NCBI GenBank assembly: GCA_949286415.1
Contig: CASEBV010000023.1
Span: 1-64,000, forward strand
Reading direction: 5' to 3'
Length of the DNA stretch: 64,000 nucleotides
From: an uncultured Bacteroidales bacterium
Lineage (GTDB): Bacteria; Bacteroidota; Bacteroidia; Bacteroidales; UBA932
A program made the position numbers and the translations under genes. The notes below the pieces were generated by a model. The model made no database searches. It worked only from the letters and a program-made list of their open reading frames with translations, and was not told where the DNA came from. Below, piece after piece: positions 20,977-27,384 of this stretch. Within the stretch, counting starts at the first letter, position 1; each line of letters starts with the position of its first letter.

Positions 20977-22584
20977 ATGAGTAAAATCGATTTGACCAAG
21001 TACGGCATCACAGATGTCAAGGAAATTCTCCACAACCCGTCTTACGAGGTACTCTTCCAGGAAGAGACAAAGGAAGGACTCGAGGGTTACGAGAAAGGCC
21101 AGGTTACTGAACTCGGCGCCGTCAATGTAATGACAGGCATCTACACAGGACGCTCTCCTAAAGACAAATTCTTTGTTTACAACGAAGCCAGCAAGGACAC
21201 CGTATGGTGGACTTCAGACGCATACAAGAATGACAACAAGCCTTGCTCAGAGGAAGCCTGGGCTGACCTCAAGGCAAAGGCAGTGAAGCAGCTTTCAGGC
21301 AAGAGACTTTTCGTGATGGATACTTTCTGCGGAGCAAACCCTGCTACCCGCCTCAAAGTCCGCTTCATCATGGAAGTTGCATGGCAGGCTCATTTCGTGA
21401 AGAACATGTTCATCCGCCCTACAGAGGAAGAACTTGCAAACTACGGAGAGCCTGATTTCGTTTCATTCAACGCTGCAAAGGCAAAGGTTGAGAACTACAA
21501 GGAGCTCGGCCTCAACTCCGAGACTGCAACTGTCTTCAACCTCAAGACCAACGAGCAGGTTATCCTCAACACATGGTACGGCGGTGAGATGAAGAAGGGT
21601 ATCTTCTCCATCATGAACTACCTCAACCCTCTCCGCGGCATCGCCTCAATGCACTGCTCAGCAAACACAGACAAGGAAGGCAAGAGCACAGCCATCTTCT
21701 TCGGCCTTTCAGGAACAGGCAAGACTACCCTCTCTACAGACCCTAAGAGACTCCTCATCGGCGACGACGAGCACGGCTGGGATGACGAAGGAGTATTCAA
21801 CTACGAAGGCGGATGCTATGCAAAGGTCATCAACCTCGACAAAGAAAGCGAGCCTGATATCTACAACGCCATCAGAAGGGATGCACTCCTTGAGAATGTC
21901 ACAGTAGACGCTGCCGGCAAGATTGACTTCGCCGACAAGAGCGTTACCGAGAATACCCGCGTATCCTACCCTATCGACCACATCGAGAACATCGTCAAGC
22001 CGGTTTCAAAGGGTCCTCACGCAAAACAGGTAATCTTCCTCTCAGCAGATGCATTCGGAGTACTTCCTCCGGTTTCCATCCTTACTCCTGAGCAGACTCA
22101 GTACTACTTCCTGTCAGGCTTCACAGCCAAGCTTGCAGGTACTGAGCGCGGCATCACAGAGCCGACCCCTACCTTCTCCGCATGCTTCGGTGCAGCATTC
22201 CTCTCACTCCACCCTACAAAATACGGTGAGGAACTCGTGAAGAGAATGAACGCAGTAGGCGCAAAGGCATACCTCGTCAACACAGGCTGGAACGGAACAG
22301 GCAAGCGTATCTCCATCCGCGACACCCGCGGAATCATCGACGCCATCCTTGACGGCTCAATCGAGAAGGCTCCTACCAAGAAGATCCCATACTTCGACTT
22401 CGAAGTACCTACAGAGCTTCCAGGCGTAGACCCTGCCATCCTTGACCCTCGCGACACATACGCTGACGCAAGCGCATGGGACACAAAGGCCAAAGACCTC
22501 GCAGGCCGCTTCATCAAGAACTTTGAGAAATTCACAGGCAACGAGCTCGGCAAGTCCCTCGTGGCAGCCGGCCCTAAGCTCTGA
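20977..22584 (+). CDS. pckA: Phosphoenolpyruvate carboxykinase (ATP)
   Basis: 535 residues, full length. Interconverts oxaloacetate and PEP with ATP/ADP; in Bacteroidales it mainly runs in the PEP-to-oxaloacetate direction to feed the fumarate-succinate route. Motifs: TGRSPKDKF (substrate), [11 protein letters not shown] (P-loop kinase-1a), [12 protein letters not shown] (kinase-2 and Mn ligand), and FSACFGAAF with the [11 protein letters not shown] region. Its codon use is strikingly different from neighbours (many CTC, AAG, CGC, TTC, TAC codons), as expected for a highly expressed gene. Monocistronic: own promoter and terminator. Confidence 0.98.
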
Positions 22585-22707: not shown

Positions 22708-23311
22708 CCCAGGTGGGCATTCTCAGTGCGGGCTGCCGACCCACCTGACACAGTTACATTCCGTTTTCGCGGCAGGTGGGAACAATATGGCGCCACCGAT
22801 GTCCCACCTGACGCAATTTTCGTTGATTTCGCGGCAGGTAGTACATTCATTGCATCACCTAACATGGATTCGCGGCTTTTTCGTGGCAGGTGGACATTCT
22901 CAATGCGGGCTGACGACCCACATGACACAGTTACAATCAGTTTTCGCGGCAGGTGGGCATTCTCTCAGCGCGCAGACGCCCCACCTGACATAGTTGCAAT
23001 ACTTTTCCGCGGCAGGTGGGTACAATATGGCACTTCCGATGTCTCACTTGACGCGATTTTCGCTGATTTCGCGGCAGGTAGTGCATTCATTGCATCACCT
23101 GACATGGATTCGCGACATTTTCGGGGCAGGTGGGCATTCTCACAACGGGCAGACGGCCCACCTGACATAGTTGCAATACTTTTCCGAGGCAGGTGGGAAC
23201 AATATGGCACCCACGATGTCCCACCTGACGCAATTATCGCAGATTTCGCGGCAGGTAGTGCATTCGTTGCATCACCTGGCATGGATTCGCGGCGTTTCCG
23301 CGGCTGGTGGG
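22708..23311. repeat. Ordered array of ten 52-63 bp palindromic units (A/B/C types) beside a RAYT transposase
   Basis: Ten contiguous units, each opening with GGCAGGTGGG or a variant. By position: A 22708-22770, B 22771-22832, C 22833-22884, A 22885-22947, A' 22948-23010, B 23011-23072, C 23073-23124, A' 23125-23187, B 23188-23249, C 23250-23301, then a truncated GGCTGGTGGG at 23302-23311. Lengths are constant by type (A 63, B 62, C 52), so A-B-C is 177 bp. In A and B units the opening arm is answered ~22-24 bases later by CCCACCTGAC or a decayed variant, giving 8-bp stems; C units start GGCAGGTAGT and carry ATCACCTG. Units join at a conserved TTTCGC-GGCAGG junction. A separate TGACAG/CTGTCA hairpin sits at 22688-22703, just left of the array. 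Confidence 0.93.
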
Positions 23312-23497
23312 AAGATTCTATGAAACAATTGATTCATAATATATTAATTAAACGTTTAATCGTTGCAAAAGAAGGAATTTATTGTTTTCTTGCAGGCAAA
23401 TATCGCAGGCCGCGGACGCAGATTTATACAGCCGTTGTGAAGACTGAGGACGCTGGCTGGCTATGTACAATCAGGAATTTGACTAAAGGAATTGGAA
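23312..23497. other. AT-rich leader between the array and the RAYT gene, with a 14-bp palindrome
   Basis: After the array ends the base composition turns AT-rich. A perfect palindrome ATTAAACGTTTAAT lies at 23347-23360 and could be an operator or a transposase site. A frame continuing from the array stays open to 23559 with an ATG at 23320 (79 codons), but it overlaps the transposase start and shows no family resemblance, so I do not call it a gene. No convincing TAnnTTTG box was found here. Confidence 0.5.
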
Positions 23498-24400
23498 ATG
23501 AATTACTACCATCTATGCACGGAAGGATTGGGGGAAACGGTAATGTTCAGGGACAATGAGGATTATGTCACGGGTATCAATTACCTTGCTGTCTGTCAGA
23601 TTGCATTGAATCAGATTGCACCAAATCAGATTACACCAAATCAGATTACACCGAAAAAGATTGAGATCATTGCTTTCTGTCTGATGTCAAATCACCTGCA
23701 TATTGTCGCAAAGGGAGAGAACGCGATATTGAAGAAATTCATCATTTCTTTTAAACGCAGGTATTCAATGTGGTTGGCAAGGAAATATAATGAACATAAA
23801 ATTCTTCACAGGACGGCATTTACGATAAAGGAAATTGACAGTACTGAATATTTGAAACAAGTCATTGCCTATGTATTGAGAAATCCGATTGCCGCCGGAA
23901 TAAATGTCAGCCCTTTCCAATATAAATGGAGCAGTGCATCCTGTTATTTCCGGCAGAAAGACATAGGCAGCAAGAAAATTCAGACATGGCTTACGGGCAA
24001 TGGAATACGGCGTATTTTCAAGACGAGGACACTGATTATTGATGGAATAAATATAATTGACGGGGAAATGGCAGATTTAATGTCATTTGTCAAATTTACT
24101 GAAGTCGAGGCCATCTTCAAGACCCCCAGGGCGCTCATGTATTTTATGTCCAAGGACAATGACAACGAAATTGAATTGGAAATGAATACATTGAAGAAAG
24201 TCTCATACAATGACTCCACTGTCATCAATGCAATCCGACAAATCTGTGAAAAGAAGTTTCAGACATCACAAATCAATGCGCTGGGAATACATGAGAAATG
24301 TTCATTGGTAAAATATATGAAGAAGAACTTCAATTCTTCGCCAAAACAAATTGCAAGAATACTGAGCCTCAGGTTGCAGACAATCGCACAAATATACTGA
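23498..24400 (+). CDS. REP-associated tyrosine transposase (RAYT), IS200/HUH Y1 family
   Basis: 300 residues from the ATG at 23498 (MNYYHLCTEGLGE...). HUH single-strand nuclease motif H66-L-H68 in CLMSNHLHIVAKG; the Y1 catalytic tyrosine is Y125 in VIAYVLRNPIAAGI, the hallmark RAYT sequence. A C-terminal region (SPKQIARILSL) looks like the helix-turn-helix seen in many RAYTs. Such enzymes cut and rejoin single-stranded DNA at cognate REP hairpins and are usually domesticated single copies. Codon use is AT-rich compared with neighbours, suggesting transfer. A four-fold 15-bp repeat (NQITP motif) lies just before the HUH motif. The gene stands directly downstream of the palindromic array, its likely substrate. 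Confidence 0.88.
   Translation: MNYYHLCTEGLGETVMFRDNEDYVTGINYLAVCQIALNQIAPNQITPNQITPKKIEIIAFCLMSNHLHIVAKGENAILKKFIISFKRRYSMWLARKYNEHKILHRTAFTIKEIDSTEYLKQVIAYVLRNPIAAGINVSPFQYKWSSASCYFRQKDIGSKKIQTWLTGNGIRRIFKTRTLIIDGINIIDGEMADLMSFVKFTEVEAIFKTPRALMYFMSKDNDNEIELEMNTLKKVSYNDSTVINAIRQICEKKFQTSQINALGIHEKCSLVKYMKKNFNSSPKQIARILSLRLQTIAQIY
23597..23656 (+). repeat. 15-bp tandem repeat (x4) inside the RAYT gene
   Basis: Units of the form CAGATTACACCAAAT repeat four times (with small changes), encoding QIALN-QIAPN-QITPN-QITPK. It sits in the stretch between the first strand and the HUH motif. Being a multiple of three, copy-number slippage would keep the frame. Confidence 0.9.
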
Positions 24401-24437: not shown

Positions 24438-24483
24438 TATGATGTGAATGACACGGAAATAAATGTTAATCATACCAAATAAA

Positions 24484-27384
24484 ATGAAAAGATTTCTTTT
24501 GCTTGTCGCGGCATTCGCAGCAATTGCCGTGACATCCTGCTCGCAGTACAAGTACGACACTGTGGCAGGTGACCCGCTTGAGACGAAAATCTACACTCTG
24601 GACAACGGGCTGAAGGTGTACATGAGCGTCAACAGGGAGACGCCGCGTATACAGACCTACATCGCAGTGATGGTCGGAGGCAAGAACGACCCTTCCGAGA
24701 CGACCGGTCTCGCCCACTATTTCGAGCACCTGATGTTCAAGGGCACGCCGAACTACGGCACATCGGACTATGCGGCAGAAAAGCCGATGCTCGATGAGAT
24801 AGAAAGGCTCTTTGAGGTGTACAGGCAGACTGAAGACGAGGCGGAAAGGGCAGCAATCTACCATCAGATTGACTCCATCAGCTATGAGGCTTCAAAGATT
24901 GCCATTCCGAACGAATACGACAAGCTCATGTCAATCATAGGGGCGAAGGGGACAAATGCCTTCACTTCACAGGACATGACGGTATATGTGGAGGACATTC
25001 CTTCAAACGAAATCGAAAACTGGGCAAGAATTGAGGCCGACAGATTCAAGAACCCGGTAATCAGGGGCTTCCATACTGAATTGGAGACTATCTACGAGGA
25101 AAAGAACATGTCTCTCACCCAGGACAGCAGGAAAGTATCCGAAGCCATGGACGCCGCCCTCTTCCCTCACCATCCGTACGGGACACAGACAGTGCTCGGC
25201 ACACAGGAGCACCTGAAGAATCCTTCCATCACCAATGTGAAGAACTACCACAAGACATATTATGTGCCCAACAATATGGCCATCTGCCTGTCCGGTGACT
25301 TCGCCCCTGACGAGATGGTGGCTGTGATTGAAAAATATTTCGGCGACATGCAGCCGAACCCTGAGCTGCCGCAGCTTCAGTTTGAAAAAGAACAGCCTAT
25401 CGTCTCCCCGGTGGTAAAGAAAGTCTACGGGCTTGAAGCCGAGAACATCACCATAGGATGGAGGCTTCCGGAGGCTACAGACAAGTCAAATGATGTGGCA
25501 AACATCGTAAGTTCCATTCTCTACAACGGACAGGCAGGCCTCATTGACCTTGACCTCATTCAGCAGCAGAAGGTGCTTTCGGCATACGCATACAACAACA
25601 ATCAGCCTGACTACGGGTCATTCATCGTGTCGGCAAGGCCTAAGGCCGGGCAGACTCTTGACCAGGTGCGCGACCTGCTTCTTGCAGAAGTGGCCAAGCT
25701 CCGCAGCGGGGACTTTGATGAAAGCCTCATCGAGGCCACGGTCAACAACTACAAGATGTACATGATGAAGAACTATGAAGACAATTCCAACAGGGCAATG
25801 CTCTATGTGATGTCATTCATCAATGGCTCCGACTGGGCCGACGAAGTGCAGATGCTCGACCGTATGGCACAGATTACCAAGCAGGATGTGGTTGACTGGG
25901 CCAACACTTACCTCGGAGCAGAAAACTATGCAGTCATCTACAAGCTCCAGGGTGAAGACAAGACGGTGCAGAAGATAGCCGCGCCGAAGATCACACCGAT
26001 TGTCACCAACAGGGACAAGCAGAGTGACTTCCTCACAGAAGTCCAGAACACTCCGGTCAAGCCTGTCGAACCAGTCTTTGTGGATTATTCAAAAGACATG
26101 TCGAAGTTCGAGGCCCGTCCGGGAGTCGAAGTTCTCTACAAACAGAATGAGATGAACGACCTCTTCACCCTGATTTATGTCTTTGACATGGGCACGGAGA
26201 CCGACCCGGCCCTCAATCTTGCGGCAGACTATATCTCGTACCTCGGCACGAAAGAAATGTCCGCAGAAGAAATAGGCTCAAGGATGTATGACATCGCCTG
26301 CTCATTCGGGATATATGCCGGAGCCAACCAGACGACAGTCCAGATTTCCGGACTGAGCGAGAACATGGGAGAAGCAATGGACATCGTGGAAAGCCTGATC
26401 AGCGGAGCGCAGGCGGACGAGGACATCCTCGCCAATCTCAAGGCAGACCTCTTCAGAAGCAGGGCAAACGCCAAGCTCAGCCAGGGAAGCTGCTTCGGGG
26501 CACTCCAGAGATACATGGTGTACGGGCCTGAATTCATCAAGAGGACCGTCCTTGACAACCCTGCCGTGGAGGCCCTTACTTCCGAGGCTCTCCTCGGCAA
26601 AATCCGCAGCCTGATGGACAAGCAGCATGAAGTGCTTTACTATGGTCCGCAGAGCCGGAAGGAGTTCACTGCATCCCTCGATGCACATCACAAGACAGCT
26701 GCAGAGCTCCAGCCTCTCGAGAAGAAATTCACCAAAGGGCTTGAAGTGGACGAGACAAGCGTCGTGCTTGCCCAGTATGACGCCAAGCAGCTCTACATGA
26801 TGCAGTATTCGGACAGAGGAGAGAAATTCAGCATACCGGATGAACCGGGAATCGCCCTATACAATGAATATTTCGGAGGCGGGATGAACACCATCGTGTT
26901 CCAGGAGATGAGGGAAGCCAGAGGCCTTGCATATACGGCCGTGGCACAGCTTGTTTCCCCTTATTTCCTTGACGGCGACTACTATTACCTCGCATTCATC
27001 GCCACGCAGAACGACAAGCTGAAACAGGCAGTGGAAGCATTCGACGAAATCATCAACGAAATGCCGGAATCACAGGCTGCATTTGACATCGCCAAGGAAG
27101 CAATGCTGAACAGAATCCGCACACAGCGCACCGTCCGCGACCAGGTTCTCTGGAACTACATCAATGACAGGGAACTCGGGCTTTCCGAGCCTCTTGACAG
27201 ACAGATATTCGAAGCGGTGCAGACGATGACCCTCGATGATGTCAAGGCCATTCAGGAAAAATGGGTGAAAGGCCGCTGCTACACCTACGGTATCCTCGGC
27301 GACAAGAACGACATCGACACGAAATTCCTGAGGATCCTCGGTCCGGTCAAGGAAGTTTCGCTCGAAGAAATCTTCGGATACTGA
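24484..27384 (+). CDS. M16 family zinc metallopeptidase, lipoprotein
   Basis: 966 residues from 24484. Lipoprotein signal MKRFLLLVAAFAAIAVTSC with the acceptor C19, so membrane-anchored in the cell envelope. Inverted zinc motif H78-x-x-E81-H82 (GLAHYFEHLMFKGTPNYG), with the third ligand expected around ETIYEEKN. Two pairs of M16 domains follow: the second, inactive half starts near residue 530 and includes YNEYFGGGMNTIVFQEMREARGLAYTA. This matches the pitrilysin/insulinase fold, which degrades peptides in a closed chamber. Start chosen because the ATG at 24463 would put seven residues before the signal peptide. Own promoter and terminator indicate a single-gene unit. Confidence 0.93.
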   Translation: MKRFLLLVAAFAAIAVTSCSQYKYDTVAGDPLETKIYTLDNGLKVYMSVNRETPRIQTYIAVMVGGKNDPSETTGLAHYFEHLMFKGTPNYGTSDYAAEKPMLDEIERLFEVYRQTEDEAERAAIYHQIDSISYEASKIAIPNEYDKLMSIIGAKGTNAFTSQDMTVYVEDIPSNEIENWARIEADRFKNPVIRGFHTELETIYEEKNMSLTQDSRKVSEAMDAALFPHHPYGTQTVLGTQEHLKNPSITNVKNYHKTYYVPNNMAICLSGDFAPDEMVAVIEKYFGDMQPNPELPQLQFEKEQPIVSPVVKKVYGLEAENITIGWRLPEATDKSNDVANIVSSILYNGQAGLIDLDLIQQQKVLSAYAYNNNQPDYGSFIVSARPKAGQTLDQVRDLLLAEVAKLRSGDFDESLIEATVNNYKMYMMKNYEDNSNRAMLYVMSFINGSDWADEVQMLDRMAQITKQDVVDWANTYLGAENYAVIYKLQGEDKTVQKIAAPKITPIVTNRDKQSDFLTEVQNTPVKPVEPVFVDYSKDMSKFEARPGVEVLYKQNEMNDLFTLIYVFDMGTETDPALNLAADYISYLGTKEMSAEEIGSRMYDIACSFGIYAGANQTTVQISGLSENMGEAMDIVESLISGAQADEDILANLKADLFRSRANAKLSQGSCFGALQRYMVYGPEFIKRTVLDNPAVEALTSEALLGKIRSLMDKQHEVLYYGPQSRKEFTASLDAHHKTAAELQPLEKKFTKGLEVDETSVVLAQYDAKQLYMMQYSDRGEKFSIPDEPGIALYNEYFGGGMNTIVFQEMREARGLAYTAVAQLVSPYFLDGDYYYLAFIATQNDKLKQAVEAFDEIINEMPESQAAFDIAKEAMLNRIRTQRTVRDQVLWNYINDRELGLSEPLDRQIFEAVQTMTLDDVKAIQEKWVKGRCYTYGILGDKNDIDTKFLRILGPVKEVSLEEIFGY

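Follow-up and report, generated by a model that had tools for sequence, protein, structure and literature searches.

A RAYT-like gene preceded by an ordered tandem array of REP-like palindromes in Candidatus Cryptobacteroides: a probable REPtron-like locus in a genus with a recurrent 52-bp step

A gene for a RAYT-like protein preceded by ten regularly ordered palindromic units raises the question of whether gene and palindromes belong to one system and, if so, of what sets the spacing of the units. The locus lies in a stretch of 64,000 nt (the window) of a genome of 2.18 Mb in 29 contigs. The M16-type peptidase flanking the locus has relatives at 81–92% identity that include named Candidatus Cryptobacteroides genomes, and this is the genus of the host, a gut bacterium. 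The RAYT-like gene of the window is called RAYT1 here, and a second RAYT of the same genome, on contig C22, RAYT2. The features of the locus are as follows, L and S denoting long and short units:

20977..22584, + strand, phosphoenolpyruvate carboxykinase (PEPCK; our reading), flanking gene, syntenic in relatives with an empty site
22708..23301, + strand, palindromic array, ten units in tandem (L L S L L L S L L S; 63/62/52 bp), from step finding and TRF
22708..22770, + strand, unit 1, long type A, 63 bp, with a degenerate left edge
22771..22832, + strand, unit 2, long type B, 62 bp, a 42-bp palindrome and a 20-bp spacer (DNA fold −13.9 kcal/mol, z −3.7)
22833..22884, + strand, unit 3, short type C, 52 bp, a 31-bp palindrome and a 21-bp spacer
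22885..23124, + strand, units 4–7 (A, A', B, C; 63+63+62+52 = 240 bp)
23125..23301, + strand, units 8–10 (A', B, C; 177 bp)
23302..23311, + strand, truncated eleventh unit, left arm only (GGCTGGTGGG), closing the array
23498..24400, + strand, RAYT1, gene for a RAYT-like HUH/Y1 protein with a predicted HTH-like domain at the C terminus; a TTG at 23492 is the alternative start
24463..27384, + strand, M16-type peptidase (our reading), flanking gene, syntenic in relatives

The ten units run head to tail from 22708 to 23301 with steps of 63, 62, 52, 63, 63, 62, 52, 63, 62 and 52 bp, in the order ABC-AABC-ABC (A-B-C, A-A'-B-C, A'-B-C), and the end of the array is 186 bp from RAYT1. The lengths (A 63, B 62 and C 52 bp), the order and the distance to the gene had all been given in the original prediction and were confirmed by the unit steps and by TRF, which also yielded higher-order periods of 177 and 240 bp. 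Arms common to nearly all units had been proposed as well. The pattern GGCAGGTGGG-N(15-40)-CCCACCTGAC did occur four times in the array and never in 100 shuffles, with the minor corrections that the short units carry GGCAGGTAGT in place of GGCAGGTGGG and that the first unit starts with CCCAGGTGGG. Two classes of palindromes were distinguished, a long one of 42 bp with a spacer of 20–21 bp and a short one of 31 bp with a spacer of 21 bp. In single-stranded form, long and short units folded better than shuffled sequences when they were intact (z −3.7, −2.4 and −3.0), and a mutated short unit folded no better than its shuffles. The tetranucleotide GT[AG]G is present in nearly all left arms of this family, but within the stem, whereas in REP sequences it is placed 5' at the hairpin foot; several other palindrome families of the genus lack it. 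In comparison with REPINs, the units follow each other head to tail, yet every unit is itself an imperfect palindrome. Neighbouring units are not inverse, as those of BIMEs are, since the units of any one array share a single orientation. A CRISPR array was also considered and rejected, the palindromes being variable and the spacers recurring within one locus. Finally, a 277-aa ORF running through the array (22726–23559) was judged non-coding because the unit orders at other loci break its frame; that it stays open here follows from the 177-bp period, which is divisible by three.

The likeliest start of RAYT1 is the ATG at 23498 (MNYYH...), from which the catalytic residues are H66, H68 and Y125, exactly as first proposed. 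Numbered from the upstream TTG at 23492 these are H68, H70 and Y127 and, together with N131, they were invariant among the 57 homologues compared. The protein thus has the HUH motif and the single catalytic Tyr in Y-x-x-x-N-P. Its length is about 300 aa, its HuH–Y distance is 57 and its Y1_Tnp score was 31.1 bits, above the cut-off of 23. With 39.4 bits it did not reach the cut-off of 80 of NCBIfam NF047646 (REP-associated tyrosine transposase equivalog), a name model that was built on short RAYTs and does not define the superfamily, and RAYT1 was therefore filed as a divergent RAYT-like clade outside that equivalog. When solved structures were searched by sequence, none was obtained from the single query and a profile gave weak matches alone. 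The AlphaFold model of RAYT1 (pLDDT 90) had as its best structural match 4er8, the E. coli RAYT with a bound REP hairpin (Z 13.7 over 154 residues), followed by IS608 transposases (best Z 7.8). Sequence and model together support the RAYT-like nature of the product, in agreement with the original prediction. The C-terminal 60 residues are predicted to form helices and are weakly HTH-like (all known-fold matches had E above 1 and were mostly of HTH type), which only suggests an HTH-like domain. Full-length matches to RAYT1 were confined to the genus, the core alone being found elsewhere among the 198 genomes of the order searched, and a plasmid search gave nothing beyond remote core matches.

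The interval between the PEPCK and M16 genes was compared among relatives. In G266, the nearest complete relative (the genome of L078, by identical coordinates), it measures about 357 bp and contains neither RAYT nor array, and it is likewise short in L052. The array and RAYT1 were therefore either gained here or lost there. No second copy of RAYT1 was found in the host genome. The assembly of G193, a very near species, does not include this region and says nothing on the presence of RAYT1; its apparent absence from G193 was dropped as evidence, as that assembly has no contig with PEPCK and its contig with M16 starts about 340 bp past the RAYT.

The units are not restricted to this RAYT, a point that the original prediction had left to a search of the genome and its relatives. 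The same palindrome family forms arrays at about five further loci (C10, C8, C4/C15, C6 and, degenerate, C18), the contig ends C4 and C15 probably being joined through one array, and all 36 steps were of 52, 62 or 63 bp. Between loci, identity was 87% in the arms, 52% in the loops and 40% in the spacers (28% for shuffled spacers). Spacer length stays at 20–21 bp and is therefore kept better than spacer sequence. At both C10 and C8 the array immediately precedes a 16S rRNA gene (contig ends, our reading). Each of the two 16S rRNA operon starts recovered (L013 2300–2950, L017 1900–2250) has a RAYT1-type array directly upstream, and in the sister species G266 a short array occupies a site of this kind too (L213). 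When array DNA was used as query, the 151 genus genomes gave almost no matches, because the palindrome families are species-limited, and a search of the genus genomes for the short-unit pattern found G193 and G266 only.

Several of these data would also be expected if the array were a plain tandem repeat that began as a small number of old REP-like insertions and grew by replication slippage and unequal recombination, with the RAYT as a bystander or no longer acting. Units resemble each other most within a locus (spacers are 0.61 identical there and 0.40 identical between loci) and arrays are present at other loci that have no RAYT. As these are similar in length to that of RAYT1, the "nursery" at the RAYT once suggested is not needed. 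Comparison of arrays between relatives, as had been envisaged, revealed other unit counts and orders at the same loci of G193 (LSLLLS against LSLSLS, for example). In G266 (99% complete), RAYT1-type units are found beside an rRNA operon without RAYT1, so the units persist without that gene; the possibility raised beforehand, that relatives might hold the array without any RAYT, was realized only with regard to RAYT1, since a RAYT2 homologue is there as the sole RAYT. Array growth as such can be explained by recombination alone.

What this explanation leaves aside became apparent in the genus. RAYT homologues were present in 124 of the 151 genomes sampled, at 1–14 per genome. The flanks of 91 RAYT loci contained 242 palindromes, against 38 after shuffling and 19 in the gene bodies, and their number peaked at less than 300 bp from the RAYT gene. 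A palindrome arm word was common to both sides in 31 of the 46 two-sided loci, against 1.5 expected when sides were re-paired at random, which upholds the proposed tie between palindromes and RAYT. By self-comparison, a significant short period was detected in 86 of the 182 flanks; it was of 51–53 bp in 55 of them and of exactly 52 bp in 35. Control blocks from other Bacteroidales loci were periodic in 90 of 1331 cases, with 4 of 1331 at 51–53 bp. The 39 loci with a 51–53-bp period, which are not phylogenetically independent because their RAYTs are related (10 clusters at 50% identity among 33), fell into 34–38 palindrome families; this count comes from a replacement clustering, chained clustering of the arms having been uninformative. 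The spacers of 19 loci had a G/C-rich midpoint between A/T-rich sides (difference 0.289, null sd 0.061). In G126, the single relative tested in this way, the 52-bp unit of its own RAYT occurred at seven places and was absent from three other genomes. Outside the genus, none of 11 periodic flanks of short RAYTs was at 51–53 bp, and flanks mostly contained single palindromes. The 52-bp step common to dozens of unrelated palindrome families in the genus hints, from sequence, at a shared candidate mechanism.

Growth of a plain repeat leaves unexplained the crowding of palindromes at RAYTs throughout the genus, the arm family common to both sides and the 52-bp step of unrelated families; we regard it as a real but somewhat doubtful alternative. 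The window presents what defines a REPtron, a RAYT gene beside palindromes that recur elsewhere in the genome, and sequence evidence supports the palindromes as a REP-like family associated with RAYT-like genes. The locus is probably REPtron-like: the gene of a RAYT-like single-strand nuclease/transposase adjoins clustered tandem REP-like palindromes that are probably its cognate ones. Against this reading, RAYT1 has an array on its upstream side only.

The second RAYT bears on a further alternative. RAYT2 is 54% identical to RAYT1 and is flanked on both sides by its own module of long-short-long (L-S-L) palindromes, unlike those of RAYT1. The module occurs at at least 40 places in the genome (71 BLAST matches before strands were merged) and also around the orthologous RAYT of G266. 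If the palindromes were the recognition ends of a RAYT-carrying mobile element (a TIRYT-like transposon), with arrays as ends stacked by repeated insertion and excision, one would understand the same palindrome on both sides of many RAYTs of the genus and the PEPCK-M16 interval of the nearest relatives, devoid of RAYT and array; in addition, terminal inverted repeats have been linked to long HTH-bearing Y1 proteins (PMC6006769). However, the two modules flanking RAYT2 are direct and not inverted, most of the approximately 40 copies stand without a RAYT, and RAYT1 has units on one side and no second copy, all of which makes such an element quite improbable here. At C6 (L016 715–900), a three-palindrome module of RAYT2 type seems to be inserted in the loop of a long unit of RAYT1 type, and seems to be so at the same place in G193 (L215). 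In G266, long GGAGGCGAGGCATTTCGTAAAGCG-like degenerate repeat runs adjoin each palindrome module of the RAYT2 orthologue (L192 700–850 and 2150–2320).

Under the REPtron-like reading, the HUH domain would bind and cut single-stranded hairpins exposed in replication, and the RAYT would move units (a palindrome and a spacer of about 21 bp) into new intergenic sites. There, slippage or unequal recombination between adjacent near-identical units would expand and homogenise them, so that unit length would be inherited. Local duplication passing on the unit length is the simpler view, but it leaves open why unrelated families have the same step. A pair of adjacent palindromes, or the spacer, may be contacted in duplex form by the C-terminal HTH-like domain or by a dimer of the protein; this would hold the palindromes at a distance of five helical turns (52 bp) or six (63 bp). 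With 10.5 bp per turn of B-DNA, the two lengths come close to five and six turns and would fit duplex recognition of adjacent palindromes by either of these. A bolder and rather speculative extension, which we do not expect to hold in full, is that the HTH-bearing RAYTs, as a genus-wide radiation, read palindrome pairs as duplex five turns (52 bp) apart with a common A/T-G/C-A/T spacer. Palindrome sequence would then set specificity, spacing and spacer would be a common code, and arrays would be built or read in this register. Fixed helical spacing would equally suit duplex binding in a putative host role of the arrays (transcription termination, supercoiling or binding sites of the nucleoid), with the RAYT domesticated as their maintainer. 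The predicted HTH-like domain, the two arrays just upstream of 16S rRNA genes and the similar one in G266 are compatible with this role, which we consider unlikely given that near species differ in array content.

The original prediction stated that REPs are as a rule dispersed, alone or in pairs, and that it knew of no earlier example of such an ordered arrangement. The literature supports neither point. In Pseudomonas fluorescens SBW25, alternating GI and GIII REPs form tandem arrays whose spacing is fixed at 112/72 bp, and each RAYT gene has a REPIN cluster beside it (PMC3116915). In E. coli, BIMEs combine y and z (z1, z2) REPs into tandem mosaics (PMC8266576). The SBW25 arrays resemble the present ones in their alternating REP types, ordered tandem arrangement, fixed spacing and clusters at RAYTs. 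They differ in spacing (112/72 bp) and in their REPINs being inverted pairs (PMC3116915), whereas here head-to-tail units succeed each other every 52, 62 or 63 bp, the RAYT is a different, long one and the 52-bp step recurs across unrelated families. The HUH/Tyr core, tandem copies and several palindrome subtypes per family are shared with E. coli REPtrons; however, the REPs of BIMEs are inverse, with GTAG at the hairpin foot and not GT[AG]G within the arm, and the C-terminal domain of RAYT1 is absent from the E. coli RAYT (PMC8266576). Bacteroidetes RAYTs of TnpAY1 subclass 2.6 are likewise flanked by atypical palindromes recurring in the genome, but these proteins have about 179 aa and a HuH–Y distance of about 82 (PMC6006769), values that place the about 300 aa and 57 of RAYT1 outside the subclass. 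With subclass 2.1, long HTH-bearing Y1 proteins for which no nearby REP-like sequences were reported (PMC6006769), and with TIRYTs, RAYT1 shares the long Y1 protein and the C-terminal HTH-like domain, here predicted; the strong enrichment of palindromes sets it apart from their description (PMC6006769, PMC3733652). No report of such arrays in Cryptobacteroides was found in the literature searched. What looks new is the 52-bp register throughout the genus, the spacer pattern in common and the occurrence of HTH-bearing RAYTs together with REP-like arrays.

This genus could help to clarify how RAYTs choose their hairpins and multiply them. Its divergent RAYTs, many with a palindrome family of their own but with a common 52-bp register, constitute a natural experiment separating the feature read by the enzyme (hairpin sequence) from the needs of the mechanism (spacing and spacer). 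Moreover, RAYTs with a C-terminal DNA-binding-like domain, earlier reported without REPs, are now linked to REP-like arrays.

Two minor observations were also made. Beside short RAYTs of other Bacteroidales genera, single 33-bp palindromes with 15-bp arms and a 3-base loop recur, often adjoining the gene (L266, L269, L271, L274, L278, L280, L284 and L286). An in-frame 15-bp tandem repeat is present inside the RAYT1 gene at 23596–23663 of the window (NQIAP/NQITP, 4.5 copies), and the RAYT2 orthologue of G266 contains another, different in-frame tandem insert (L192, about 1440–1510).
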